NCBI RefSeq assembly: GCF_013377295.1
Contig: NZ_CP016180.1
Coordinates: forward strand, 620,001 to 684,000
Origin: Pasteurella skyensis
GTDB taxonomy: Bacteria > Pseudomonadota > Gammaproteobacteria > Enterobacterales > Pasteurellaceae
Length of the DNA: 64,000 nucleotides
Direction: 5' to 3'
Shown: piece after piece, positions 27,545-55,868 of the stretch
Position numbering within the stretch: position 1 is the stretch's first letter
Layout of the letters: each line of letters begins with the position of its first letter
The notes under the pieces: generated by a model
The model's database searches: none
The model's input: only the letters and a program-made list of their open reading frames with translations
What the model was told of the DNA's origin: nothing
Position numbers and translations under genes: made by a program

Positions 27545-27634
27545 CTGAGATGTTCTCAGTGTATTTTTAATACGTATGGTGTTGAGGTACAAATATATTT
27601 GTATGGCTCAATGGCGATGCGGTCTCAACAGAGG
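27545..27634 (+). promoter_or_regulatory. Structured 5' leader of rpmE, candidate L31 autoregulatory element
   Basis: Two hairpins precede rpmE: CTGAG (27545-27549)/CTCAG (27555-27559), and TTGAG (27582-27586)/CTCAA (27607-27611) enclosing TACAAATATATTTGTA. GTTGAG (27581-27586) can instead pair with CTCAAC (27624-27629), placed directly before the ribosome site AGAGG. Alternative pairings near the start fit the known class of gammaproteobacterial L31 leaders. The rest of 27293-27543 carries AT-rich promoter DNA for tktA and rpmE. Confidence 0.55.
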
Positions 27635-27643
27635 TTTTCTATA

Positions 27644-42511: not shown

Positions 42512-42781
42512 TTAACGACGTAAACCTAAACGTGCGATAGTGTCTGCATAACGATTTAGATCCGTACGTTTTAAGTAATCTAAAAGTTTACGACGACGTG
42601 AAACCATTTTCAATAGACCACGACGACCGTGATGGTCTTTTTTGTGTTCTTTAAAGTGATTTTGTAAATGGTTAATTTGAGCAGTTAAAAGAGCGATTTG
42701 AACTTCAGATGAACCAGTATCTTTTTCATCACGACCAAATTCAGCAACGATTTTTGCTTTTGCTTCTGCACTTAGAGACAT
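42512..42781 (-). CDS. rpsO: 30S ribosomal protein S15
   Basis: An 89-residue S15 of normal length, binding 16S rRNA in the platform. '[27 protein letters not shown]' blocks (about 30-56) and the end '[13 protein letters not shown]' are characteristic. ATG 42781 follows AGGAG. It is monocistronic between its own terminator and a leader that can fold in two ways, in keeping with S15 autoregulation in gammaproteobacteria. Confidence 0.97.
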
Positions 42782-42860
42782 ATTTTTACTCCTAAAATAA
42801 GTAAGTTAAAATTCATCAATAGCCGATCTCTAATTCAGCTATGACACGGAATGGCTAATT
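42782..42860 (-). promoter_or_regulatory. rpsO leader with alternative pairings
   Basis: Plus-strand ATAGCC (42819-42824) can pair with GCTAT (42838-42842) or with GGCTA (42853-42857), two mutually exclusive stems in the leader RNA. E. coli S15 binds a switching leader of this kind, but its fold differs. The remaining gene-free stretch to 43329 holds AT-rich DNA, one degraded uptake signal (near 43077) and an inverted repeat TTTGTTT (43264)/AAACAAA (43282) before the O-antigen locus. Confidence 0.35.
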
Positions 42861-43329
42861 CTAAAGAGAATGTATGAAAAAAGCAAATAATAAAAAGAGC
42901 AACACCTCAATTTAGAGTAAAATTTTAGCAATTAATGTCAGTTTAGAGTATAAATGAATGTTTCTTGAAAGGGAAAGATGAGTTTTGATACAACAAAGAG
43001 TAATGAAGACAGGGCATCCCTTCTTTTACAATATATTTATATATCAATGCATTATGTGAGTAATTGATAAAATGTAGCGGTTACATCCAGTTCAAAATTT
43101 ACAAGTATTATACCTAGCTTTTCTTAATATTATTTACATAATAATTATTAATTTCTAAAAATCAATAGGTAAAAGTTTACGATTACCTTGATAATAAAGG
43201 ATATGCTTAACTAGTTCTTGTTGTGGTTTTATTTTTTTGTAGTAGAATGTCGTGATTGGAAAGTTTGTTTGTATGAAATGTAAACAAATAAAGTTTAATG
43301 TGAAAGAGTAAAATTAGAGAAGTTTGTTA

Positions 43330-44304
43330 ATGATGAAAAAAATATTGATTACAGGCGGTGCAGGATTTATTGGTTCCAATTTAGTAGAACATTTTATAAA
43401 CAAAGGTCATACAATAACAGTATTAGATAATTTTTCAACAGGCTATGAGCACAATATTGAGTTGTTTTTTGAGCATCCTAATTTTATTTTGATTAAGGGC
43501 GATATCAGAGATTTAGAAACTTGTAAAAAGGCGTGTAGTGGTCAGGATTATGTTTTACATCAGGCTGCTTTGGGTTCTGTACCTCGCTCTATTGAAGATC
43601 CAATTACAAGCAATGAAACGAATGTATCAGGTTTTTTGAATATGTTAGTTGCTGCAAGAGATGAAAAAATAAAACGCTTTGTTTATGCAGCAAGCTCATC
43701 AACTTATGGTGATTCTAAATCGTTGCCAAAAGTGGAAGATATTATTGGAAAACCTTTATCCCCTTATGCCATTACCAAATATGTAAATGAATTATATGCT
43801 GATGTGTTTTCTAAAACTTACGGTTTAGAATGTATAGGTTTACGCTATTTTAATGTTTTTGGAAGAAAACAAAATCCAAATGGAGCGTATGCTGCGGTTA
43901 TTCCAAAATTTGTTATTCAGTTAATGAATTATGAAAGTCCTGTGATTAATGGAGATGGTACTTATTCACGAGATTTTACATATATTGATAATGTCATTCA
44001 AATGAATGAACGAGCGATGCTATCAGAGAATAAGGATGCAGTTAATACGATATACAATACGGCAGTTGGAGATAGAACAACTATTAAACAAATGGCAGAA
44101 TTATTAAAAGAATATTTGTCTGAATTTGATAGTAAGATTGCTGATGTGGAGATTAAATATGGACCAAATAGAGCAGGGGATATCCCACATTCATTGGCGT
44201 CTATTGATAAAGCAAAAGAATTATTAGATTACCAACCAACACACGAGTTTGCTAAAGGCTTGAAAGAGGCTGTGGCTTGGTATTGGAAAAATTTAGAAAA
44301 ATAA
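43330..44304 (+). CDS. UDP-N-acetylglucosamine 4-epimerase (WbpP/TviC type)
   Basis: A 324-residue short-chain epimerase interconverting UDP-GlcNAc and UDP-GalNAc (or their uronic acids). NAD motif 'GGAGFIGSNLVEHF' (about 8-21), catalytic 'SSSTYGDS' and the Tyr-Lys pair 'YAITKYVNE' (about 148-156) are present, and 'QAALGSVPRSIEDP' is characteristic of the WbpP/TviC subgroup. ATG 43330 with AGAGAAG seven bases upstream is preferred over TTG 43324; ATG 43333 is equally possible. It is the first gene of the O-antigen locus, coupled to a 6-dehydrogenase. Confidence 0.9.
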   Translation: MMKKILITGGAGFIGSNLVEHFINKGHTITVLDNFSTGYEHNIELFFEHPNFILIKGDIRDLETCKKACSGQDYVLHQAALGSVPRSIEDPITSNETNVSGFLNMLVAARDEKIKRFVYAASSSTYGDSKSLPKVEDIIGKPLSPYAITKYVNELYADVFSKTYGLECIGLRYFNVFGRKQNPNGAYAAVIPKFVIQLMNYESPVINGDGTYSRDFTYIDNVIQMNERAMLSENKDAVNTIYNTAVGDRTTIKQMAELLKEYLSEFDSKIADVEIKYGPNRAGDIPHSLASIDKAKELLDYQPTHEFAKGLKEAVAWYWKNLEK

Positions 44305-44313
44305 GAGATTAAA

Positions 44314-45597
44314 ATGAAACATAAAATAGCAGTAATCGGTTTAGGTTATGTAGGATTACCTTTGGCAAGACTATTTGCCACAAAATATCCAACAGTTGGT
44401 TTTGATATTAACAAACCAAGGGTAGAAGAATTAAATAATGGACATGACGATACTTTGGAGGTATCTGATGAGTTGTTACAATCGGCATTAGTGCAAGAAA
44501 ATCCATTTAAGAATGGTGTAAATGGATTGTATTGTTCGGCTGATTTAGAAGATATTAAAGGTGCTAATATTTTTGTAATCACTGTTCCAACGCCTGTTGA
44601 TAAAAATAATCGTCCTGTTTTAACGCCGTTGGTTAAAGCGAGTGAAAGTGTCGGTAAGGTTTTGAAAGAAGGTGATATTGTTATCTATGAATCAACTGTT
44701 TACCCAGGTGCAACAGAAGAAGAATGTATTCCTGTGTTAGAAAGAGTTTCTGGAATGAAATTTAATGAAGATTTTTATGCAGGTTATTCTCCTGAAAGAA
44801 TTAATCCAGGAGATAAAGAGCATACGGTTGAAAAAATATTAAAAGTAACTTCTGGTTCTACTCCAGAGATTGGAAAAATTGTTGATGATATTTATAAATC
44901 AGTAATTATTGCAGGAACACATTTAGCACCAACTATAAAAGTGGCTGAAGCGGCGAAAGTTATTGAAAACTCACAAAGAGATATTAATATCGCTTTTGTC
45001 AATGAATTGGCAAAAATATTCAATTTAATGGATATTGATACTCACGCAGTATTGGACGCTGCGGGTACAAAATGGAACTTCTTACCATTTAAACCAGGTT
45101 TAGTTGGAGGGCATTGTATCGGTGTTGATCCATTCTATTTAGCACAAAAAGCACAAGAATATGGTTACCACCCAGAAATTATTTTAGCAGGAAGACGCTT
45201 AAATGATTCTATGGGTAAATACGTTGCTGAGCAAGTAGTAAAAGCAATGATAAAAAAAGATATTGCTGTAAATAATGCGAAAGTTTTGATGCTTGGAATA
45301 ACTTTTAAAGAAAACTGTCCAGATGTGAGAAATACAAAAATTGTAGATGTAATTTCAGCATTGGAAGATTTTGGAGTAAAAGTAACGACTTACGATCCTT
45401 GGGCAAATTCAGAAGAGGTAAAACACGAATACGGAATTGCAAGTACGCAAAAACTACCTAATAAGAAGTTTAGCGCTATTGTTTTAGGAGTTGCTCATAA
45501 AGAATTTAAAGATTTAGATTTATTTGCTTTAAAGGAAAATAAAGCTATAGTTTATGATGTGAAGGGTATTTTGAGAGAGAGTGACTCTAGGTTATAA
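44314..45597 (+). CDS. UDP-N-acetylhexosamine 6-dehydrogenase (WbpO/TviB type)
   Basis: A 427-residue nucleotide-sugar dehydrogenase oxidising C6 to the uronic acid. NAD motif 'GLGYVGLPLARLFA' (7-20), catalytic Cys in 'VGGHCIGVDPFYLA' (about 264-277) and 'GITFKENCPDVRNTK' are complete. With the epimerase it should yield UDP-GalNAcA; the order of the two steps depends on whether it is TviB- or WbpO-like. Its stop overlaps the wzx start by one base (TAATG). Confidence 0.92.
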   Translation: MKHKIAVIGLGYVGLPLARLFATKYPTVGFDINKPRVEELNNGHDDTLEVSDELLQSALVQENPFKNGVNGLYCSADLEDIKGANIFVITVPTPVDKNNRPVLTPLVKASESVGKVLKEGDIVIYESTVYPGATEEECIPVLERVSGMKFNEDFYAGYSPERINPGDKEHTVEKILKVTSGSTPEIGKIVDDIYKSVIIAGTHLAPTIKVAEAAKVIENSQRDINIAFVNELAKIFNLMDIDTHAVLDAAGTKWNFLPFKPGLVGGHCIGVDPFYLAQKAQEYGYHPEIILAGRRLNDSMGKYVAEQVVKAMIKKDIAVNNAKVLMLGITFKENCPDVRNTKIVDVISALEDFGVKVTTYDPWANSEEVKHEYGIASTQKLPNKKFSAIVLGVAHKEFKDLDLFALKENKAIVYDVKGILRESDSRL

Positions 45598-46838
45598 TGC
45601 AAAGAATAAAAAGTATATTCGCAAATAAAGATTATAAATCTTTAATAGAAAATCTTTTATCATTAGGTTTCCTACAATTTGCTAATTTGTTATTACCTCT
45701 ACTTGTTTTACCTTATATGATAAAAACCGTAGGTTTTGATTATTATGGACAAATAGTTGTTTCAGCATCGTTAATAAAATATTTTCATTCACTTACCTTA
45801 TATAGTTTTGGTATTACAGCAACAAGAGATATTGCAATACATAAGCATAGTAAATCAAAATTAAATTTCATTTTTAGCCAAGTAATGATTACAAAGTTAA
45901 TATTCTTATTAGTTGCTTTAATTCTTATTACTTTGATTGCTTTGTTTGTACCTGTATTTTCAACATACAAAACTATTATATTTCTTTCTATGTTAGTATT
46001 GATAGGAAATGTATTATTTCCAGATTGGTATTTTCAAGGGATAGAAAAAATGAAATATATTACAATGATTAATGTTTTTATTAAGGTTTTTTTTACCCTT
46101 TTTATTTTCTTATTCATAAAAGAAAGAGAAGATTATTGGATATATCCTTTGGTTAATAGTTTAGGTTATATTTTTGCAGGAGTATTGGCATTGTATGTTG
46201 TTTTTGTAAGGCATAGAATACAATTATTAAAATTAAAACCTATACAAATAAAAACAACTATAACAAATAATTTTCCAATATTTGTAAATGAATTTGTACC
46301 TGTCTTATATAATAATACTTCAAGTCTTTTATTAGGTGTTTTTGTGTCAAGTGCTTCGGCAGGGATTTATGATGCTTTGAAAAAAATAGTAGATTTAGCA
46401 ATTATGCTTTTAAATGTGATTTCAAAAGTATTTTTTCCATTTCTAAATAGAAAAAAAGACTTTTTTTCAAAATATAGAAAGATGTTTTTTCTGTTGGTAT
46501 TTGTAATCATTGCGTTTATTCTTATGTTTTCACAGCAGATGTTTGCTTATTTCCGGATTGTAAATGAAAATGCGTTTAGTTTGTTGTTTATTTTGTTATT
46601 TGGAATTGTAGGAAGTGCCTTTTATTTGATTTATGCAGTTAATTATTTGATTGTTCATAGATTTGATAATTTAGTAATGAAAAATACATTATATGTTTCA
46701 TTATTGAGTTTTGTTATTTCATTTCCTTTGGTCTATTTTTTAGAACTATTAGGTGCTGTAATTAGTATAACCATATCAAGAGTTGCATTAGGAACAATGA
46801 TGTATATAACATACTTAAAGGTTAAGAATTATGAATAA
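45597..46838 (+). CDS. wzx: O-unit flippase
   Basis: A 413-residue polytopic membrane protein with about 12 hydrophobic segments, of the polysaccharide biosynthesis (MATE/MVF) family. 'LGFLQFANLLLPLLVLPYMIKTVGFDYYGQIV' blocks at about 22-54 are typical of Wzx. It would move the undecaprenyl-linked O-unit to the periplasm. It overlaps both neighbours. Base composition is much lower in GC than core genes, with many ATA codons, as common for O-antigen flippases. Confidence 0.9.
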   Translation: MQRIKSIFANKDYKSLIENLLSLGFLQFANLLLPLLVLPYMIKTVGFDYYGQIVVSASLIKYFHSLTLYSFGITATRDIAIHKHSKSKLNFIFSQVMITKLIFLLVALILITLIALFVPVFSTYKTIIFLSMLVLIGNVLFPDWYFQGIEKMKYITMINVFIKVFFTLFIFLFIKEREDYWIYPLVNSLGYIFAGVLALYVVFVRHRIQLLKLKPIQIKTTITNNFPIFVNEFVPVLYNNTSSLLLGVFVSSASAGIYDALKKIVDLAIMLLNVISKVFFPFLNRKKDFFSKYRKMFFLLVFVIIAFILMFSQQMFAYFRIVNENAFSLLFILLFGIVGSAFYLIYAVNYLIVHRFDNLVMKNTLYVSLLSFVISFPLVYFLELLGAVISITISRVALGTMMYITYLKVKNYE

Positions 46839-47397
46839 AATAATTTATGTTTTTCAATTATTATATGGTTATTTAGTAGCAAAATTTAGTAGAATTTCTT
46901 TTGTGGGTACAACAAAATTTTTAGGTAAATTTAGAGTTATTAATAGTGGAAAAATTATTATAGGAAGTGATACGATAATTAATTCTATGAATAGAGGGTA
47001 TCATATAAATATGCACTCTCCTTGTAAATTGTATTGTATGAATACTTCGGCAGTTATTTCTATTGGTAAAAATTGTAGAATACACGGAACTTCTATAAAT
47101 GCAGAAAAAAAGGTAGAAATAGGGAATGGTTGTTTAATTGCTGCCAATACTCAAATAATGGATAGTAATGGGCATATTACTGATATGAAAGAACCTAATA
47201 ATCGTTTACTAAAAAGAGATGAAGCAAAAGAAATTGTAATAGGAAATAATGTATGGATTGGTGCAAATTGTATTATATTAAAAGGTACAAAAATAGGTGA
47301 TGGTAGTATTATAACAGCGGGTAGTGTTGTAAAAGGTAATATTCCTGCAAAATCTATTTACGGTGGAAATATAGCAACTTTAATAAAGCAATATTAA
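46831..47397 (+). CDS. Hexapeptide-repeat acyltransferase, probable sugar O-acetyltransferase
   Basis: A 188-residue left-handed beta-helix acyltransferase of the CysE/LacA/NodL class. Hexapeptide repeats are clear from about residue 70 onward ('ISIGKNCRIHGTSIN', 'VEIGNGCLIAANTQIMD'), ending in 'VIGNNVWIGANCIILKGTKIGDGSIITAGSVV'-type coils (about 136-170). The catalytic His is likely in 'SNGHIT' (about 113). It probably acetylates a sugar of the O-unit with acetyl-CoA. It overlaps wzx by eight bases. Confidence 0.85.
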   Translation: MNKIIYVFQLLYGYLVAKFSRISFVGTTKFLGKFRVINSGKIIIGSDTIINSMNRGYHINMHSPCKLYCMNTSAVISIGKNCRIHGTSINAEKKVEIGNGCLIAANTQIMDSNGHITDMKEPNNRLLKRDEAKEIVIGNNVWIGANCIILKGTKIGDGSIITAGSVVKGNIPAKSIYGGNIATLIKQY

Positions 47398-47404
47398 ATA
47401 AATT

Positions 47405-48421
47405 ATGAAAATAGCAATACATAAAAGAGAAGGAAGTTTTTCAGATAGATGGATAACTTATTGTAAAGAAAATAATATTTCTTATATAGAAGTTAATTGT
47501 CATTTGGGGACTATTTTAGAATTATTACTTTCAGAAAAAGTAACCCACTTAATGTGGCATATTAATCATGCTGATGATATAGATGTACAGGCATTTTCTT
47601 ATGTGATGAATTCTGCCGATAATATGGGAATTAAAACATTTCCAAATTTTAATGCTCGTTGGCATTTTGATGATAAAATTGCTCAAATGTATTTTTTAAC
47701 ATCATTCAATCAACCACTTGTGCCAAGTTATGTGTTTTTCGACGAAAAAAAAGCATTAGAGACAAGTAGAAGTATAGATTATCCTATCGTTGCAAAATTA
47801 AAGCGTGGTGCTGGTGCAACTAATGTTAAACTAATTCATAATTATAATGAAGTAAGTGAATACATAAAAAGAATGTTTAGTATAGGAATTTCTCCACATT
47901 CTGCACCATTGGGAAATCTAAAACAAAAAGTACGAATAGCAAAAGCAATTAAATCTCCAAAATTATTAATCAAAAAAGTTTTTGGATATTTTTATAGAGT
48001 TATTTCTAAACAGAATAGTCTAGGAAATGAAAAAGGCTACTTTTATTATCAAGATTTCTTACCTAAAAATGATTATGATACTCGTATTGTAGTTGTTGGA
48101 GATAAAGCAATAGGTATAGTTAGAACTAATAGAGATAATGATTTTAGAGCATCAGGAAGTGGGAAAATTGTGTATGATATAAATAAAATAGATATAGAAA
48201 TGATTAATATTGCTTTTAAATTAAAAGAAAAAAGTAAATATGATTGTTTGGGATTTGATTTTGTTTATGATAAAGACAGAAAACCTAAAATTATTGAAAT
48301 ATGTTTTGGATTTTCTATGTTGGCATATGATAAATGTGAAGGTTATTGGGATGAAGAGTTGCATTTTCATAAACAGACGTTGAATTTACAATATGAAATG
48401 ATAAAAAATTTTATTGCATAG
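47405..48421 (+). CDS. ATP-grasp enzyme of the O-antigen locus, function unknown
   Basis: A 338-residue ATP-grasp protein (RimK-like C-terminal lobes). The ATP-binding Lys131 is in 'YPIVAKLKRGAGATNV', the second lobe has 'YQDFLPKNDYDTRIVVVG' (about 215-232), and metal ligands are expected at Asp285 ('LGFDFVYD') and Glu298 ('IIEICFGFS'). The usual Asn after Glu-X is Cys here. Such enzymes make amide or peptide bonds from a carboxylate. With a uronic acid supplied by the first two genes, a role in amidating or amino-acylating it is a reasonable but unproven reading. Confidence 0.8.
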   Translation: MKIAIHKREGSFSDRWITYCKENNISYIEVNCHLGTILELLLSEKVTHLMWHINHADDIDVQAFSYVMNSADNMGIKTFPNFNARWHFDDKIAQMYFLTSFNQPLVPSYVFFDEKKALETSRSIDYPIVAKLKRGAGATNVKLIHNYNEVSEYIKRMFSIGISPHSAPLGNLKQKVRIAKAIKSPKLLIKKVFGYFYRVISKQNSLGNEKGYFYYQDFLPKNDYDTRIVVVGDKAIGIVRTNRDNDFRASGSGKIVYDINKIDIEMINIAFKLKEKSKYDCLGFDFVYDKDRKPKIIEICFGFSMLAYDKCEGYWDEELHFHKQTLNLQYEMIKNFIA

Positions 48422-48475
48422 ATTTATTTTCGTTTATGGATAAATTATTAGATGTTGGATAAGCAGAAGTAAACA

Positions 48476-49630
48476 ATGAATATTAGTTTAGATTTAGTAG
48501 ATTATTTGTATAGTGTTGTTATATTTTTTACAACTTTTATTTTTGCGATCATTATAGGTCGTAAATTTAAGTTAAGTTTGAATATGATAGTAGTACTTTT
48601 CTTGTGGCATTCTCTATTTTCTATTATTTATTATACTATTTCATTGCTTCCTAATTCTACTTACGATAGTGTAGATTATTATTTAGCATCATCACAAGAG
48701 GATTTGGGGGGGGTGAGTGTTGGTACTCAATTTATAAGATATTTTACATCCTTTTTTACCAAAGGATTTGGTTTTTCTTATTTAGGAAATTTTTTATTAT
48801 ACAATATGATCGGGGTAGTTGGTTTTTTTGCATTTGTTGCTTCATTAAAGAAAACTAATGTGTATAAAGTATCAAATTGCAAAAAGTATTTTTTCTATAT
48901 GTTAATTTTTTTACCATCATTAAGTTTTTGGTCTTCGGCTATTGGAAAAGATGTTTTTTCATTTATGGCTATTGGTTTGTCAATATACTCAATGATTGAT
49001 AAACCTAAATATTTTCTGTTTTCCATTTCTGTGTTATTTATGTTTTTAGTAAGACCCCATGTTGCTATGATAATGTTGGTAGCAATGATGTTATCCGTTA
49101 TGGTCTATTCAAAAACGAAGTTTTATATAAAATTTTCTTTTGTTGCAATAGGTTTAGTAGTTGCTTTTGTTGCCATTCCTTTTGCAATACAATATGTAGG
49201 TATACAAGGAGATATTAGTTATTCAAGAGTGATTGAATATATACAATATAGGCAAACTTTAAATCAACAAGGAGGCAGTAGCCTTAATATTAGTTCTATA
49301 TCATTACCTATGCAATTAATAACTTATGTTTTAAGACCTTTTCCATTTGAGGCACATAATTCTTTTGCTTTGTTTACTAGTTTAGAGAATGTTTTTTTGT
49401 TACTAATATTTATTAAAGGAATCGCTTTATTTTTGAAAAAATCGAAATCAACAATAAGATATAATTATGTTTATATGTTGTCTTTTTCAATTGTTTCTTG
49501 GGTATTATTAGCAACAACAACAGCTAATTTAGGATTGGCATCAAGACAAAAATGGATGTTTGTACCTGTAATATGTTTTTTGATTTTTGCAAAATGGCAG
49601 AAAAGAGATAGCAAACATGATAACGAATAA
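48476..49630 (+). CDS. wzy: O-antigen polymerase (Wzy-like) with a G8 tract
   Basis: A 384-residue membrane protein with about ten hydrophobic segments and no strong family signature, as usual for Wzy; a periplasmic loop around 65-85 and another around 240-275 are seen. The pattern 'LSFWSSAIGKDVFSFMAIGL' is like EpsG/Wzy proteins. It would link O-units in the periplasm. Eight consecutive G at 48706-48713 encode Leu-Gly-Gly-Val within an otherwise AT-rich gene; gain or loss of one would truncate the protein near residue 80. It overlaps the next gene. Confidence 0.8.
   Translation: MNISLDLVDYLYSVVIFFTTFIFAIIIGRKFKLSLNMIVVLFLWHSLFSIIYYTISLLPNSTYDSVDYYLASSQEDLGGVSVGTQFIRYFTSFFTKGFGFSYLGNFLLYNMIGVVGFFAFVASLKKTNVYKVSNCKKYFFYMLIFLPSLSFWSSAIGKDVFSFMAIGLSIYSMIDKPKYFLFSISVLFMFLVRPHVAMIMLVAMMLSVMVYSKTKFYIKFSFVAIGLVVAFVAIPFAIQYVGIQGDISYSRVIEYIQYRQTLNQQGGSSLNISSISLPMQLITYVLRPFPFEAHNSFALFTSLENVFLLLIFIKGIALFLKKSKSTIRYNYVYMLSFSIVSWVLLATTTANLGLASRQKWMFVPVICFLIFAKWQKRDSKHDNE
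48706..48713 (+). repeat. Poly-G tract (G8) in wzy
   Basis: GATTTGGGGGGGGTGAG contains eight G; codons read TTG GGG GGG GTG, so the present length keeps the frame open. Long G tracts are rare at this base composition and are classical slippage sites in Pasteurellaceae surface genes. Confidence 0.9.
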
Positions 49631-50669
49631 AAAAACTTATTTCCTTATATCTGACCAATTAGGCGGTGCAGAACAATTATTATTTCAATTAGCTAAAAAT
49701 GATTTAAATAACAGTAAGGTCTGTTTTTTTAAATCAAAAAGTACAGATGTTTGGGAAAATGAAAGTATAAAAACTTATTATTGTAATAATAGTATTACAA
49801 ATTTTATAAAGTTTTGCAGTAAAGAAAAATTTGATGTTGTTTTTTCAACACATTTGATGATAAATGCTCTTTTAGGTTTTTTGAGAGCATTGGGGATTTT
49901 GAAAACCAGTAAATTAGTTTGTAGAGAATCTACTTCTGTTTTTGACCGTTATAGTGGAAGAAAACTTTTGAAATATAAAATTGCTTATTGGTTAGGATAT
50001 CGAAAAATTGATTTATTGATTACCCAATCTGATTTAATGAAAGAAATTTTATTACAAAATATTCCTTATTTATCTAATAGAATGCAGGTTGGAACAATTC
50101 CTAATTTATTTACTTTGCCAAGTGATGAAATTCTTAATGAAGATATTGAAGTAAAAGAAAATGTTATCGTAGGAGCAGGGCGATTAATTCCTGAAAAGGG
50201 TTTTGATATTTTAATAGAGGTTTTTGCTGAACTTGTAAAAAAATATCCCAAAATGAATTTGGTAATTTTAGGAGAAGGTGATGAAAGAGAAAAATTAGAA
50301 GGTCTTATTAAAGAATTAGATTTGTTTGAAAGTGTACATTTATTAGGTTTTGTAAAAAATGTATATCCCTATTTTAGACAAGCAAAAGTGTGTGTTGTAT
50401 CATCAAGAAAAGAAGGTTTTCCTAATGTATTATTACAAATGATGTTGCAAAATGAAAGAGTTGTTTCTACACGTTGTGCAGGAGGAATTGATAAAATAAA
50501 AGGTGTTGAAATTTGTAAAGCAAATGATAAAAATGAATTATATAGTGCGATAGAACATACTATATCTAAATCAATAACAAATGAAAGATTGTTATTTGAT
50601 AAGGAATTAGAAAAAAGAAGTATTGATGTCTTTATTCATTCAATAAATAAAAAATTAGGAAAGAAATGA
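49617..50669 (+). CDS. GT4 family glycosyltransferase
   Basis: A 350-residue GT-B transferase. The donor-site region is clear: 'IVGAGRLIPEKGFDILIEVFAEL' and 'LGEGDEREKLEGLIKEL' (about 190-240), then the E-X7-E type 'SSRKEGFPNVLLQMM' (about 265-280). The frame opens at 49587, but ATG 49617 is the better start, since AAGAGAT lies before it and the family N-terminus 'FLISDQLGGAEQLLFQL' follows. It overlaps wzy by 14 bases. It resembles WbpR-like enzymes adding N-acetylhexosaminuronic acid, but donor and linkage are not known. Confidence 0.88.
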   Translation: MITNKKTYFLISDQLGGAEQLLFQLAKNDLNNSKVCFFKSKSTDVWENESIKTYYCNNSITNFIKFCSKEKFDVVFSTHLMINALLGFLRALGILKTSKLVCRESTSVFDRYSGRKLLKYKIAYWLGYRKIDLLITQSDLMKEILLQNIPYLSNRMQVGTIPNLFTLPSDEILNEDIEVKENVIVGAGRLIPEKGFDILIEVFAELVKKYPKMNLVILGEGDEREKLEGLIKELDLFESVHLLGFVKNVYPYFRQAKVCVVSSRKEGFPNVLLQMMLQNERVVSTRCAGGIDKIKGVEICKANDKNELYSAIEHTISKSITNERLLFDKELEKRSIDVFIHSINKKLGKK

Positions 50670-51412
50670 AAGTAAAATATTTAGTCAGATTAGATGATGC
50701 TTGTCCTACAATGGATTGGCAAAAGTGGCAAAGATTTGAGAAAATTCTTGATGAAGCAAATATAAAGCCATTGGTAGGTGTTATTCCTAATAATCAGGAT
50801 AAAATGCAGATGAAAGATGATGCTAATCCTAATTTTTGGAATGTGGTAAAAGAATGGGAAAATAAAGATTGGGCTATTGCTTTACACGGAAATAATCATA
50901 CGTATTGTATGTTAAGAAAAAATAAAGGATTAAATCCTATTAATTCATTTTCAGAGTTTGTCGGGAAGTCATTAAAAGAGCAAAAAGAAATTATAAAAGA
51001 ATCGTGGGAAACTTTTTTATCTAATGGAATTGAACCAAAGTATTTTTTTGCACCTGGACATTCTTTTGATGAAAATACATTAAAAGCAATGAAAGAAGAA
51101 ACAAACATTCGTATTGTTAGTGATATGATAGCAAGTAAACCATATTTTGAACAGGGTTTTACTTTTATTCCTTGTCAAATGGGGAGTTTTAGAAAAATAA
51201 AATTACCAGGCTATTATACGGCTTGTTTTCATCCGAATGAAATGAATGATAATGCTTTTAATAAAGTAGAAAAATTTATTAGTGAAAATAGAGAAGATTT
51301 CATCAATTTTGGAGAGTTAAATTTGAAGAGTTTGTCTAGTTTATCATTGTATGATAGGTTTTTAAGAGTGTTGTATTTTACAATGCGTAGGTTAAAAAAA
51401 GTATTAAAGTAA
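50666..51412 (+). CDS. DUF2334-like polysaccharide deacetylase family protein
   Basis: A 248-residue NodB-fold protein. The catalytic/metal motif is visible as 'RLDDACP' (Asp10-Asp11) and 'ALHGNNHTY' (His74, His78), with 'FFAPGHSFDENTLKAM' further on, as in DUF2334 enzymes. No signal peptide or membrane segment is seen, so it should act in the cytoplasm, on a sugar nucleotide or on a lipid-linked O-unit. It may remove an acetyl or other acyl group from an amino sugar. It overlaps the previous gene by four bases. Confidence 0.8.
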   Translation: MKVKYLVRLDDACPTMDWQKWQRFEKILDEANIKPLVGVIPNNQDKMQMKDDANPNFWNVVKEWENKDWAIALHGNNHTYCMLRKNKGLNPINSFSEFVGKSLKEQKEIIKESWETFLSNGIEPKYFFAPGHSFDENTLKAMKEETNIRIVSDMIASKPYFEQGFTFIPCQMGSFRKIKLPGYYTACFHPNEMNDNAFNKVEKFISENREDFINFGELNLKSLSSLSLYDRFLRVLYFTMRRLKKVLK

Positions 51413-52540
51413 ATGAAAAAGAAACTTTTAATAGTAGTAAATGTAGATTGGTTTTTTATTTCCCATAGGCTTTGTATAGTTGAAGAAGCAGTGAAGCAAG
51501 ATTGGGATGTCTATGTAGCTTGTGCAGATACAGGACGAAGTAAGGAAATTATAGATAACGGTATTAATTACATTAATTTACCACTTTCTCGTTCAGGGAT
51601 GAATCCTTTTCAAGAGTTAAAAACACTTATCAGTCTATTCAAAATATATAAAAAAATACAACCAGATGTTGTTCATCAAGTTACAATGAAACCTGTTGTT
51701 TATGGCTCGGTAGTAGCAAAGATATTGAAAATAAAAAATGTTGTAAATGCTATTAGTGGCTTGGGGTATAATTTTACAAGTAAGAGAAAATCATTTACCG
51801 CCAAGTCTATTATTAGATTGATGAAATATGGTTTTAAAAGAGAGAATTTGACTATTATATTTCAAAATAGTGATGATGAGAGAGAGTTAAAAAAACTTGG
51901 AGCTGTATATGAAAAAAATAAAATTGTAAGAATAAAAGGTTCAGGGGTTGATTTAGATACATTTTTGTATAGTGATTTTCCGACTTTTAATAGAATAAAA
52001 ATACTTTTTCCTGCAAGAATGTTGTGGGATAAGGGCGTAAAAGAATTAAAAGAAGCAACTGATTTGTTAAAATTAAAGTATCAATATAAAATTCAATTTA
52101 TTTTATGTGGTTTGGCAGATACCGAAAATAAAGCAGGGGTTACGGAAGAATATATGAATAATTGGCAAGATGGGGATTATGTAAAATGGATTGGTTATCA
52201 TCAAGATATGGTTCAGATTTATAAAGATTCTCATATTGTAGTTTTGCCTTCCTATAGAGAGGGAATGCCAAAATCTTTATTGGAGGCTTGTGCCATTGGA
52301 AGACCTATTGTTACGACTAATGCAACAGGTTGTGATGAGTGTGTTGAAGATGGAGAAAATGGCTTTAAGGTATCGGTTAGTTCATCAAAAGAATTAGCAG
52401 AAGCTATAGAGAAACTAGTTAATAATGAACAGCTGATAAAAAGTATGGCAATAAAATCAAGAAAAAAAGCAGAAAAAGAATTTGATGTTAAAAATGTTAT
52501 TGCGAAACATATAGAAATTTATAATAAAGGTTTAGAATGA
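51413..52540 (+). CDS. GT4 family glycosyltransferase (PglA/WbpT-like)
   Basis: A 375-residue GT-B transferase. The N-terminal 'IVVNVDWFFISHRLCIVEEAV' and 'VVHQVTMKPVVYGSVVAKI' are typical of the group that adds N-acetylgalactosamine-type sugars to a diacylamino-deoxy sugar on undecaprenyl diphosphate (PglA, WbpT/U). The donor site has 'LFPARMLWDKGVKEL' and 'PSYREGMPKSLLEACAIGRPIV' (about 275-300). It starts right after the deacetylase stop (TAAATG) and overlaps the next gene by four bases. Confidence 0.88.
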   Translation: MKKKLLIVVNVDWFFISHRLCIVEEAVKQDWDVYVACADTGRSKEIIDNGINYINLPLSRSGMNPFQELKTLISLFKIYKKIQPDVVHQVTMKPVVYGSVVAKILKIKNVVNAISGLGYNFTSKRKSFTAKSIIRLMKYGFKRENLTIIFQNSDDERELKKLGAVYEKNKIVRIKGSGVDLDTFLYSDFPTFNRIKILFPARMLWDKGVKELKEATDLLKLKYQYKIQFILCGLADTENKAGVTEEYMNNWQDGDYVKWIGYHQDMVQIYKDSHIVVLPSYREGMPKSLLEACAIGRPIVTTNATGCDECVEDGENGFKVSVSSSKELAEAIEKLVNNEQLIKSMAIKSRKKAEKEFDVKNVIAKHIEIYNKGLE

Positions 52541-53433
52541 AAATAGTAATAACAGGAGCATCGGGTTTTGTAGGAAGTAACCTTTCTGCTGATTTAGGAG
52601 ATAAAGGTAATAAAATTGAAAAAGTATCATTGCGAAATGAAAATTTTACTTTTGATAAAGGCGCAGATGTAATTATTCATTTAGCAGGTAAGGCGCATGA
52701 TACTTCCAATACAAGTGAAGAGAATGAATACTTTAAAGTTAATACGGATTTAACAATAAAAGTATTTGATGAATTTTTAAATTCAGATATAAAAGATTTT
52801 TTCTTGTTTAGTAGTGTGAAGGCTGCTACTGATGGTGTTGAAGGACTTTTACGTGAAGATTATATAGCAACTCCTAAAACGCCTTATGGGAAATCAAAGT
52901 TGAAGGCGGAAGAATATTTATTATCGAAAGAGTTACCACAAGGAAAGCGTTTGTTTATTATTCGTCCTACGATGATTCATGGTGAGGGAAATAAAGGAAA
53001 CCTAAATTTATTATATAAAATAGTAAATAAGGGAATTCCTTGGCCATTGACATCATTTAAAAATGAACGTTCTTTTTTATCTATGGATAATCTTAACTAT
53101 GTAATAAGTGAGATGTTAAATAATAAAGAAATTGCATCAGGAATTTATCATTTAGCAGATGATGAAACTATTTCTACCAATCAACTAATAAAGATTATTG
53201 CTAATACATCAGGAAAAAAAACTCGTTTATGGAAAATTCCTGTTAATTTAATTAAATTTGTTGCGAAAATCGGGGATAGATTAGGATTACCATTAAACTC
53301 GGAAAGATTGCAAAAGCTAACTGAAAATTATGCTGTTTCTAACAAAAAAATAAAAACAGCATTAGCAATAGAAAAATTACCTTTAACTGCAGAAGAGGGT
53401 CTAATAAAAACAATTAAATCTTTTAAGGAATAA
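52537..53433 (+). CDS. NAD-dependent 4-hexulose reductase/epimerase (WbpV/WreQ-like)
   Basis: A 298-residue short-chain reductase. 'ITGASGFVGSNLSADL' (4-19) binds NAD(P), the catalytic 'FSSVKAATDG' and Tyr-Lys in 'TPYGKSKLKAEEYL' (about 130-143) are present. It resembles enzymes reducing 4-keto-6-deoxy-GlcNAc to QuiNAc or FucNAc. Its place directly before an initiating transferase and a 4,6-dehydratase is the same as in wbpV-wbpL-wbpM. The sugar stereochemistry cannot be read from the sequence. Confidence 0.83.
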   Translation: MKIVITGASGFVGSNLSADLGDKGNKIEKVSLRNENFTFDKGADVIIHLAGKAHDTSNTSEENEYFKVNTDLTIKVFDEFLNSDIKDFFLFSSVKAATDGVEGLLREDYIATPKTPYGKSKLKAEEYLLSKELPQGKRLFIIRPTMIHGEGNKGNLNLLYKIVNKGIPWPLTSFKNERSFLSMDNLNYVISEMLNNKEIASGIYHLADDETISTNQLIKIIANTSGKKTRLWKIPVNLIKFVAKIGDRLGLPLNSERLQKLTENYAVSNKKIKTALAIEKLPLTAEEGLIKTIKSFKE

Positions 53434-53436
53434 ATT

Positions 53437-53991
53437 ATGACACGAGTACTTGATTTTGTATTTTCGTTTTTTGGCATCTTATTTTTACTTCCAGTAGGAA
53501 TAATATTATATATTATTGGGTTATTTGATACAGGTTCACCCATTTTTATTCAAGAACGAGTTGGAAAAAATAAAAAGCCTTTTAATCTAATAAAGTTTAG
53601 AACAATGTCTCTTGAAACAGAATCTGTTGCATCACACTTGGCAAGTACTTCGTCTATTACTAAGTTTGGCAGTTTTTTAAGACGAACAAAATTAGATGAG
53701 TTACCACAATTGTTGAATGTGTTAAAAGGAGATATGAGTTTGGTAGGACCTCGTCCAAACTTATTTAACCAAAAAGAGCTTATTGAAGAAAGAGATAAAT
53801 TGGGTGTTTATAGTGTTGTTCCTGGAATAACAGGGTTATCTCAAATTAATGAAATAGATATGTCTACGCCTCAAAAATTAGCAGAAAAAGATGCTGAAAT
53901 GATTGCAAATTATAATCTTAAAAATTATTTTTGGTATATATTTGCAACTGTAGGAGGTAAAGGACAGGGTGATAGAGTGAAAAAACAATGA
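53437..53991 (+). CDS. Initiating phosphoglycosyl transferase (PglC/WreU-like)
   Basis: A 184-residue monotopic phosphoglycosyl transferase. An N-terminal membrane hairpin (about 4-30) precedes 'VGKNKKPFNLIKFRTMSLE' (about 42-60) and the Asp-Glu catalytic motif 'KLDELPQLLNVLKGDMSLVGPRP' in two blocks (about 86-108). It transfers sugar-1-phosphate to undecaprenyl phosphate and so starts O-unit assembly; unlike WbpL it is the small monotopic type. It overlaps the dehydratase gene by four bases. Confidence 0.92.
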   Translation: MTRVLDFVFSFFGILFLLPVGIILYIIGLFDTGSPIFIQERVGKNKKPFNLIKFRTMSLETESVASHLASTSSITKFGSFLRRTKLDELPQLLNVLKGDMSLVGPRPNLFNQKELIEERDKLGVYSVVPGITGLSQINEIDMSTPQKLAEKDAEMIANYNLKNYFWYIFATVGGKGQGDRVKKQ

Positions 53992-55868
53992 TAAATATCT
54001 TACTAAACCTCCCTCGTTGGAGTAAAAAATTAATTTTTGTATTACATGACATAATCTTAATATTTTGTGCTTTTTGGGTATCTTTGGCTTTGCGTGTACC
54101 GATTAAAGCAGAGTGGAAAGATGTTATTAACTGGGAAATTTTAGTTAGTACTATTATTATTAGTATTTTTATTTTTGCTCGCTTGGGACTGTATCGTGCT
54201 GTAATGCGATATGCTGGTGGCAAGATTATCAATATTGTTTTTTGGGGTAGCTTTTCTTCTGTTTTGGTGATGCTAACAATAGCATTTTACTGGAGAGTTC
54301 CATTTCCTCGTAGTGTACCAATTATGTACTTTTTATTGGTGCTTGTTCTAATGATTGGCTCTCGTTTTACGATAAAAGGGTTGTTGCAAACTAAAAATCA
54401 TGGTTTAAATCATCCTGTTGTTATTTATGGTGCAGGAGAGTCAGGACGACAGTTATTATTATCAATAAAACAAGTTCAATCCTATTATCCAGTTGCTTTT
54501 GTAGATGATGATATTCGTTTACAGGGTTCGGTTATTTTCAATAAACAAGTATATGCTCCTGTAAAATTATCTGAGTTAATTAAAACTTATCAAGTTGAAT
54601 CAATACTGCTTGCAATGCCAAGTGCAACAAAAGCAGAACAAAGAGCCATTCTTCAAAAGATAGAGCATTTGCCTTGTAAGGTGCTTACAATGCCTGGATT
54701 GAAAGATTTAGTAGAAGGGAAAATAAGTGTAAGTTCTCTTAAAAAAGTATCTATTATGGATTTATTGGGGCGTGATGCCGTTGCTCCTATTCCTGAGTTA
54801 ATGTCAAAGAATATTAGAGATAAGATAGTAATGGTAACAGGTGCAGGAGGCTCTATAGGCTCTGAACTGTGTCGTCAAATTATTCAACAATTACCCCGAA
54901 AACTTGTTTTATTTGAATTATCAGAATTTTCTTTGTATAGCATTGAAAAAGAGTTATCAGAGTATATTACTCAGAATAATTTGGATATTAAGATCATCCC
55001 TGCAATGGGATCTGTGCAACATCAGAATCGATTAACTAAGTTAATGAAGCAGTTTCAGGTTGAAACCGTTTATCATGCAGCAGCATATAAGCACGTACCT
55101 TTGGTGGAGTATAATACTATTGAAGGGGTTCGTAATAATATTTTTGGCACGTTGCACTGTGCTCAAGCGGCAATAAATGCAGAGGTTGAAACTTTTGTTT
55201 TAATTTCAACAGATAAAGCAGTGCGCCCTACTAATACAATGGGAACGACCAAGCGTATGGCTGAATTAGTGTTACAAGCGCTAGCTGATAAAAAAGATCA
55301 TAGTACACGTTTTTGTATGGTGCGATTTGGTAATGTACTTGGTTCTTCAGGCTCTGTTATTCCGTTGTTTGAAAAACAAATTGCTAGAGGTGGTCCTGTA
55401 ACTATTACTCATAAAGATATAACGCGTTTTTTTATGACAATTCCAGAAGCTGCGCAACTTGTTATTCAAGCTGGAGCAATGGGTAAAGGAGGCGATGTAT
55501 TCTTATTGGATATGGGAGAGTCGGTCAAAATTATAGATTTGGCTCGTCAAATGATTCATTTAAGTGGCTTTACGCCAAAAGATGAATATTCTCCTAATGG
55601 TGATATTGAAATCAAAGTAACAGGATTACGCCCTGGAGAGAAGTTATATGAAGAATTACTTATTGGCGATAATGCTAAGAGTACTAATCATTCAAGAATT
55701 ATGACTACGAAAGAAAAAATGTTGAGTTGGGAAGAGTTAGAAGTCATTTTATTAAAATTAGAGGAGGCTTGTAAATCATTTGAACCAACTAAAATTAGAG
55801 AATTATTATTAGCCGCGCCAACAGATTTTAACCCAACGGATCCTGTGTGTGATATCTTACGTAATTGA
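53988..55868 (+). CDS. UDP-GlcNAc 4,6-dehydratase, membrane form (WbpM/FlaA1 family)
   Basis: A 626-residue inner-membrane protein. Four N-terminal hydrophobic segments (about 12-110) are followed by a first Rossmann part ('YGAGESGRQLL', about 146) and the catalytic SDR domain with 'MVTGAGGSIGSELCRQI' (about 281-297) and 'TDKAVRPTNTMGTTKRMAE' (Met and Lys in place of Tyr-Lys, as in WbpM). It makes UDP-4-keto-6-deoxy-GlcNAc. It is the last gene of the locus, followed by a bidirectional terminator. GC is higher than in the middle of the locus. Confidence 0.92.
   Translation: MINILLNLPRWSKKLIFVLHDIILIFCAFWVSLALRVPIKAEWKDVINWEILVSTIIISIFIFARLGLYRAVMRYAGGKIINIVFWGSFSSVLVMLTIAFYWRVPFPRSVPIMYFLLVLVLMIGSRFTIKGLLQTKNHGLNHPVVIYGAGESGRQLLLSIKQVQSYYPVAFVDDDIRLQGSVIFNKQVYAPVKLSELIKTYQVESILLAMPSATKAEQRAILQKIEHLPCKVLTMPGLKDLVEGKISVSSLKKVSIMDLLGRDAVAPIPELMSKNIRDKIVMVTGAGGSIGSELCRQIIQQLPRKLVLFELSEFSLYSIEKELSEYITQNNLDIKIIPAMGSVQHQNRLTKLMKQFQVETVYHAAAYKHVPLVEYNTIEGVRNNIFGTLHCAQAAINAEVETFVLISTDKAVRPTNTMGTTKRMAELVLQALADKKDHSTRFCMVRFGNVLGSSGSVIPLFEKQIARGGPVTITHKDITRFFMTIPEAAQLVIQAGAMGKGGDVFLLDMGESVKIIDLARQMIHLSGFTPKDEYSPNGDIEIKVTGLRPGEKLYEELLIGDNAKSTNHSRIMTTKEKMLSWEELEVILLKLEEACKSFEPTKIRELLLAAPTDFNPTDPVCDILRN

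Follow-up and report, generated by a model that had tools for sequence, protein, structure and literature searches.

A gene in an O-antigen-type locus of Pasteurella skyensis encodes an ATP-grasp protein that is, with high probability, a carboxylate-amine ligase acting on a surface polysaccharide. Our main reading of its chemistry, to which we assign a probability of about 0.5, is that it forms a uronic-acid amide on the carboxylate of N-acetylgalactosaminuronic acid (GalNAcA), much as the unrelated TupA-type domain of Cj1438 does on a uronic acid in Campylobacter jejuni. The gene lies in a 64,000-nucleotide stretch of DNA, referred to here as the window, from a genome assembled as one contig of 2.25 Mb.

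An ATP-grasp family with a RimK-type domain

The open reading frame runs on the forward strand from an ATG at 47405 to a stop at 48421, is intact and encodes 338 residues; frame 1 of the reverse strand over the same interval is full of stops. A first-pass annotation of this DNA had described a complete ATP-grasp gene, and Lys131, Asp285 and Glu298 are present at the positions it gave, the last as E298-I299-C300. The Pfam RimK model (PF08443) matches the protein with E = 6.5e-8, scoring 32.8 bits where the gathering cut-off is 21, and matches 28 of 31 family members at E <= 0.01. A scan of named genomes found 33 relatives with 29-54% identity. Together with the Pfam score above the gathering cut-off, these relatives argue that the ATP-grasp assignment is not a chance match.

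Lys131, Asp285 and Glu298 are invariant in all 41 aligned members, as is a second lysine, K91, which lies in the motif WHFDDK and aligns with the DK of RimK and LysX. RimK and LysX ligases have an E-x-N metal motif in which the Asn is a metal ligand. The ligase family differs at this point: position 300, which follows the metal-binding Glu by two residues, is occupied by Ser in 31 of the 41 members, by Cys in 10 and by Asn in none. The E-I-C of the window's protein, which the first-pass annotation had remarked on, is thus an instance of an E-x-[S/C] motif found in every member, and we read it as a family trait with no sign of decay.

Scores against specific models place the protein outside the named families. 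The NCBIfam model for RimK family alpha-L-glutamate ligases (TIGR00768) gave 55.9 bits against a cut-off of 143.4, and that for LysX (TIGR02144) gave 54.3 bits against 275.6. Both scores are far below the cut-offs, and we conclude that the ligase shares the domain of these enzymes while belonging to neither family. Pfam gave no match to an asparagine-synthase domain in the protein, and PADLOC and PHROGs gave no match to it. This branch is therefore without a fitting specific model in the family libraries searched (Pfam, NCBIfam, PADLOC and PHROGs). Membership of the TupA-like family (PF14305) was considered and rejected, with 0 of 31 members matching at E <= 0.01; aligning the family profile to three TupA-like proteins with hhalign, a weak test, returned E 0.096 and a probability of 0.6.

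An AlphaFold2 model of the ligase, built from the window's protein aligned with 30 relatives (31 members in all), had a mean pLDDT of 90 and a pTM of 0.86, and both ATP lysines and the acidic metal ligands of the ATP-grasp fold are in place within it. Loci L027, L032 and L033 were left out of alignment A1. The closest structures by VIA-align were LysX (Z 24.7), ArgX (24.5), a further LysX/ArgX (24.2) and RimK (24.1), followed by the RimK-domain protein 5i47 (21.2) and, at about 20, the D-Ala ligase Ddl, PurK, glutathione synthetase and synapsin. LysX and ArgX (LysW-glutamate:amino acid ligases) and RimK (the ribosomal protein S6 glutamate ligase) are also the closest solved sequences, the 31-member profile matching RimK at 1.1e-10 and LysX/ArgX chains at 3e-7 to 4e-6, although sequence identity to the ligase is just 14-18%. 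In the alignment with RimK, the DK at K91, the Q-[DE]-[FY], xDxR and FR motifs and the Asp/Glu metal site all correspond.

Unlike RimK and LysX, members of the ligase family sit in polysaccharide loci. They also carry a basic insert, which comprises about 46 residues (34-50) between F158-G161 and E209, corresponding to residues ~162-208 of the window's protein, and its net charge is positive in 39 of 39 near-full-length members (the partial L027 and L032 being excluded), with a mean of +7.7 compared with -0.5 for the rest of the protein. Between the same two aligned blocks the ligase family has about 55 residues and RimK has 7, so that the insert is mostly absent from RimK. It is modelled as two helices, at a lower confidence (pLDDT 63-78), and we infer a docking role for it, either at the membrane or at a substrate that is polyanionic and linked to a lipid pyrophosphate.

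The O-antigen-type locus

The ligase gene is one of twelve same-strand genes (43324-55868, forward) that make up an O-antigen-type locus. At its head, as the first-pass annotation had proposed, are genes for UDP-GalNAcA synthesis: a TviC/WbpP-like UDP-sugar 4-epimerase (43324-44304; NCBIfam TviC 380 bits, equivalog cut-off 760 not reached) and a TviB/WbpO-like UDP-N-acetylhexosamine 6-dehydrogenase, the source of the uronic acid (44314-45597; NCBIfam TviB 554 bits, equivalog cut-off 592 not reached). The epimerase reading frame begins with TTG, with an ATG 6 bases further in, and its homologues in other TviB-bearing loci are 51-72% identical; the dehydrogenase is the sole PF03721 match in the whole genome. 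Next come a Wzx flippase (45597-46838; PF01943, 3.8e-34) and a WbbJ-like O-acetyltransferase of the hexapeptide acyltransferase type (46831-47397; Pfam and NCBIfam matches), and then the candidate amide ligase, with its signature residues K91, K131, D285, E298 and C300. It is followed by a membrane protein of 384 residues (48476-49630) for which Pfam and NCBIfam searches returned zero family matches, so the name Wzy, also used in the first-pass annotation, rests on position and character. The acetyltransferase and this Wzy-like polymerase flank the ligase as that annotation stated.

Downstream are a GT4-type glycosyltransferase (GT1, 49617-50669; Pfam and NCBIfam), a DUF2334 polysaccharide-deacetylase-like protein (50666-51412; PF10096 1.1e-49, PF01522 2.9e-5), a second GT4-type glycosyltransferase (GT4b, 51413-52540; Pfam), an SDR sugar epimerase/reductase (52537-53433; PF01370), an initiating sugar-phosphate transferase (53437-53991; PF02397, 1.3e-49) and a WbpM-like UDP-GlcNAc 4,6-dehydratase (53988-55868; PF02719, 2.4e-130). 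GT1 has matches no more than three genes away from the ligase in L002, L003 (52% identity), L005, L010, L015, L029, L052, L053, L054 and L056. The SDR protein is presumably a WbpV-like 4-keto reductase for QuiNAc. In pathways of this kind TviB and TviC yield UDP-GalNAcA, and WbpM with a WbpV-like reductase yields UDP-QuiNAc, so the O-unit repeat probably contains GalNAcA and QuiNAc. The presence of two glycosyltransferases and an initiating transferase suggests an O-unit of about three sugars.

From Wzx through the initiating transferase the genes have a G+C content of 24-31%, compared with 35% in both window flanks. Low G+C relative to the flanks is usual for an imported O-antigen locus. A ribosomal S15 leader (RF00114, 115 bits) lies directly upstream of the locus on the opposite strand, at 42725-42846, and an L31 leader is found elsewhere in the window (27573-27635, forward).

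WbpS-type (AsnB-like) glutamine amidotransferases of Pseudomonas aeruginosa O6 convert the GalNAcA carboxylate to a primary amide, and their loci have the WbpO/WbpP/WbpM gene set in common with the window's. The window's locus appears to hold a ligase in place of such an enzyme, as the first-pass annotation had suggested: none of the twelve genes has a Pfam match to asparagine synthase of the AsnB/WbpS type, and a tblastn search of the window with two AsnB-like proteins found no match. The two enzyme types have unrelated folds, and some loci of ligase relatives hold both.

Distribution of the family

The ligase family is thinly spread over many phyla. Within the family of the window's own genome the gene is found in 1 of 140 genomes, that of the window. 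Profile searches (seed genomes counted throughout) recovered it in 3 of 369 genomes of the same class, in 8 of 395 genomes of the class and 6 of 279 of the family of an Aequorivita genome (G507), in 3 of 391 genomes of the class of a Ruminococcaceae genome (G518), and in 5 of 227 genomes of the genus Vibrio (that of G515), the last including one weak match and one broken copy. Plasmid and phage collections held no relative, and a DNA search of Escherichia coli genomes gave no match to the gene. Such a distribution is as expected, because genes of this sort are carried by variable surface-polysaccharide loci.

Copies with in-frame stops were seen in a genome of the Vibrio genus (G1542; L066/L068) and in Electrothrix (L033). 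The window shares the order Wzx-ligase-Wzy with an Aequorivita locus (L002:8736-12165), with identities of 46% for Wzx, 54% for the ligase and 30% for the Wzy-like proteins in corresponding places. Since this gene order is shared although L002 belongs to the Bacteroidota, part of the O-antigen locus may have moved between phyla.

Association with TviB-type dehydrogenases

We examined the association of the ligase with uronic acid synthesis by comparing its surroundings with those of 74 other PF02397 loci in the same 34 genomes, lying more than 30 kb from the ligase, with copies up to 15 kb apart merged (97 of 101 PF02397 rows were kept, the four dropped being pieces beside a kept row). The comparison took in 76 dehydrogenase rows scoring at least 100 bits. 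With TviB-like defined as a PF03721 score below 140 bits, a proxy verified by protein similarity near the ligase and taken from the score for the controls, such a gene lay within 10 kb in 10 of the 34 ligase genomes (window included) and in 3 of the 74 controls (Fisher p = 0.00045); within 20 kb the counts were 13 of 34 and 6 of 74 (p = 0.0003). Ugd/WecC-like dehydrogenases showed no enrichment (2 of 34 against 2 of 74 within 10 kb). A comparison with Wzx (PF01943) loci, using 78 dehydrogenase rows and, of the 123 Wzx rows that passed the cut-off, the 120 that were neither broken nor split, gave 10 of 34 against 8 of 101 at 10 kb (p = 0.003). We judged this control weak and set it aside for PF02397, since flippases encoded outside polysaccharide loci are matched by PF01943 as well.

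In wider stretches TviB was found within about 22 kb of the ligase in 16 of 41 loci, namely fourteen relatives identified by protein similarity (49-73%), L031 identified by PF03721 alone, and the window. The TviB, TviC and ligase genes adjoin directly in L013, L017, L021, L026 and L055. Among seven later genomes, three (G1417, G1691 and G1655) had TviB within 20 kb (p = 0.027 against the 20-kb control). G1556 has WecBC and another dehydrogenase in place of TviB, and G1330, G1565 and G1542 are without a clear TviB, G1542 having two short dehydrogenase-like pieces of 63 and 39 bits.

A phylogeny of TviB co-occurrence, which the first-pass annotation had called for, gave a divided answer. On a maximum-likelihood tree (excluding L033, in which the gene is broken, together with the weak match in G1394 and the broken copy in G1542) the TviB link needs at least nine gains or losses, at least five of them forced by well-supported branches. 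However, the genomes are statistically non-independent: the label is also clustered on the tree (3 of 500 shuffles reached a value this low), and 5 of the 16 TviB rows come from a single clade of seven Bacillota/Actinomycetota members. Being both repeated and clustered, the link appears to have been partly inherited and partly gained or lost repeatedly. TviB was absent from the stretches read in 25 of the 41 loci, several of which are on short contigs. For the nearest relative, L002, neither TviB nor TviC was found in about 30 kb on either side, and GalNAcA is accordingly a candidate acceptor only. No TviB was present in the fetched stretches of an eight-member Nitrospira/delta/beta clade (with Nitrospira, Anaeromyxobacter, Citrifermentans and Nitrosomonas); one of its members, L006, has a dehydrogenase in the TviB score range 32.6 kb from the ligase. 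Given these relatives without TviB nearby, the ligase may act on other carboxylates, or these genomes may encode uronic acid synthesis at another site; each of the 34 genomes contains at least one PF03721 match.

Other recurrent partners

Ligase loci often hold other amide-forming enzymes, as seen from the recurrence of several types. A TupA-like ATP-grasp gene adjoins the ligase in L029 and lies within about 7 kb of it in L026 and L006; AsnB-like proteins, so labelled by reading, are near it in L006, L009, L012, L015, L052 and L053; L018 has an Asn_synthase domain nearby, and L030 a Mur ligase. At L029:1795-2691 the TupA-like gene directly follows the RimK-like gene, so that two different ATP-grasp families stand side by side. 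DUF362 proteins adjoin or lie near the ligase in L008 and L055 (by Pfam) and in L009, L011, L023 and L054 (by BLAST).

Genes of the CapA/PGA_cap type (PF09587, the poly-gamma-glutamate capsule family) are a further recurrent partner. They were tested against the Wzx control only, with 34 of 38 CapA rows kept and the four weakest left out, and lay within 5 kb in 7 of 34 ligase genomes against 0 of 101 controls (p = 4e-5), and within 10 kb in 7 of 34 against 1 of 101. Five further cases are L051, L052, L053, G1691 and G1655. The loci in which this type was seen near the ligase are L003, L005, L015, L017, L024, L025, L034, L051, L052, L053, L082 and L086. A family with an ESDDWGS motif, which we take to be deacetylase-like, occurs near the ligase in L015, L029, L051, L052, L053 and L054, with two copies per locus, mostly of about 370 residues; two members tested had no Pfam match.

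Which carboxylate and which amine?

LysX, ArgX and RimK activate the carboxylate of a large partner and use a small amino acid as the amine. Amide formation on a uronic acid follows the same direction, and it draws on the LysX/ArgX/RimK-type fold, indirectly on the TviB link and on the precedent of Cj1438C from a different ATP-grasp family. The suggestion of such an amide in the first-pass annotation is upheld to that extent; it is tempered by L002 and the eight-member clade, which lack TviB, and by the deacetylase-like protein of the window, which could supply an amino-sugar acceptor. The enzyme might thus work in reverse, activating the carboxylate of an amino acid or small acid and joining it to the free amine of an amino sugar, such as a QuiN-type sugar or one that the DUF2334 protein has deacetylated. 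A DUF2334/polysaccharide-deacetylase-like gene does lie in the same operon and, with the ESDDWGS family present in six loci, keeps this alternative alive, as does a cluster of proteins resembling sugar aminotransferases, read as DegT type and present in 9 of the 33 named loci. However, BLAST with the window's DUF2334 protein gave matches in 0 of the 33 other loci, the direction would be opposite to that of LysX, ArgX and RimK, and the genomic statistics tie the ligase to uronate synthesis of the TviB type; we consider the reverse direction unlikely, if a serious contender.

The CapA enrichment raises a different prospect, that the ligase starts a peptide or poly-glutamate chain on the glycan or lengthens one already there, as in teichuronopeptide-like polymers, with CapA-type partners and with the first residue only being added in the window. 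The title of PDB entry 5zct, which names a RimK poly-alpha-glutamate synthetase, fits with this. The window's own genome, however, has no CapA match. Moreover, CapA-like proteins belong to a phosphoesterase-like superfamily and so may instead remove phosphate. Such a role would be analogous to that reported for Cj1435 of C. jejuni (PMC11800379, PMC11800397). Chain addition thus seems to us improbable. Less probable still, to the point where we give it very little weight, is that the protein is an ATP-grasp kinase or some other enzyme that modifies a sugar of the locus without forming an amide. In its favour, the Asn normally present as a metal ligand is lost, and there is a weak match to the inositol-phosphate kinase ATP-grasp family (1 of 31 members; profile against 1z2n, E 0.033), but fold and profile group the ligase with LysX, ArgX and RimK. 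In addition, TupA-type proteins are likewise without the Asn: in three aligned neighbours (Cj1438C itself being outside the alignment) the E and T of an E-L-T motif are invariant and E-x-N is absent. Loss of the Asn is thus no argument against ligase activity.

Proposed reaction and its precedents

In the amidation that we favour, the C6 carboxylate of N-acetylgalactosaminuronic acid in the O-unit would be phosphorylated with ATP to an acyl phosphate, which a common cellular amino acid (or a simple amine) would then attack through its amino group to leave an amide-linked decoration. The reaction would probably take place at the inner membrane face on the lipid-linked O-unit, after transfer of the uronic acid and before flipping, with the basic helical insert holding the enzyme to the membrane or to the pyrophosphate or another polyanion. 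A point against this reading is that no amine-supplying gene is visible in the window.

The nearest functional parallel is the C-terminal TupA-like ATP-grasp domain of Cj1438 from C. jejuni HS:2, which is reported to use serinol-P or ethanolamine-P to amidate glucuronate at its C6 carboxylate (PMC11800379, PMC11800397). According to the same reports, UDP-GlcA is not a substrate, the glucuronate is amidated once it is in the chain, Cj1435 removes the phosphate after this step and the next glycosyltransferase requires the amide (PMC11800379, PMC11800397). Like the ligase, Cj1438C is an ATP-grasp enzyme of a polysaccharide locus, and the reaction proposed here, a uronate C6 amide, is of the same kind. 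Unlike the ligase, it belongs to a separate ATP-grasp family (PF14305) and its amines are made by dedicated genes; in the window's locus no dedicated serinol-P or ethanolamine-P genes were recognised.

Products of the predicted type are described in other bacteria. A Vibrio alginolyticus polymer carries D-Ala and D-Ser amide-linked to uronic acids (PMC4663550), a V. vulnificus capsule carries amide-linked serine, and another V. vulnificus capsule contains QuiNAc and GalNAcA, the same sugars as predicted for the window (PMC7247339). No relative of the ligase could be matched to an organism for which a polysaccharide structure has been solved. In our literature search Cj1438C was the only enzyme found to make such a uronate amide. 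The search found no described member of the ligase family, though the ATP-grasp survey of Iyer et al. (2009) may list it, and no paper joining ATP-grasp with an O-antigen gene cluster, or with lipopolysaccharide, amino acid and uronic together.

We tentatively suggest, at somewhat lower confidence than for the reaction in the window, that these proteins form a separate class of glycan aminoacyl ligases derived from RimK/LysX, marked by a basic docking insert and an E-x-[S/C] metal site and ranging from Pseudomonadota and Bacteroidota to Bacillota and Actinomycetota. Such enzymes would aminoacylate lipid-linked uronic acids and could explain part of the known amino-acid-amidated O-antigens and capsules, and in some cases a CapA-type phosphoesterase would act alongside, stripping phosphate from the amine once it is coupled. 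Amidation takes away a negative charge and gives rise to new antigenic sites. With a defined family, signature residues, the insert and a recurrent TviB/TviC partner, uronate decorations of this kind would become predictable from genomes.
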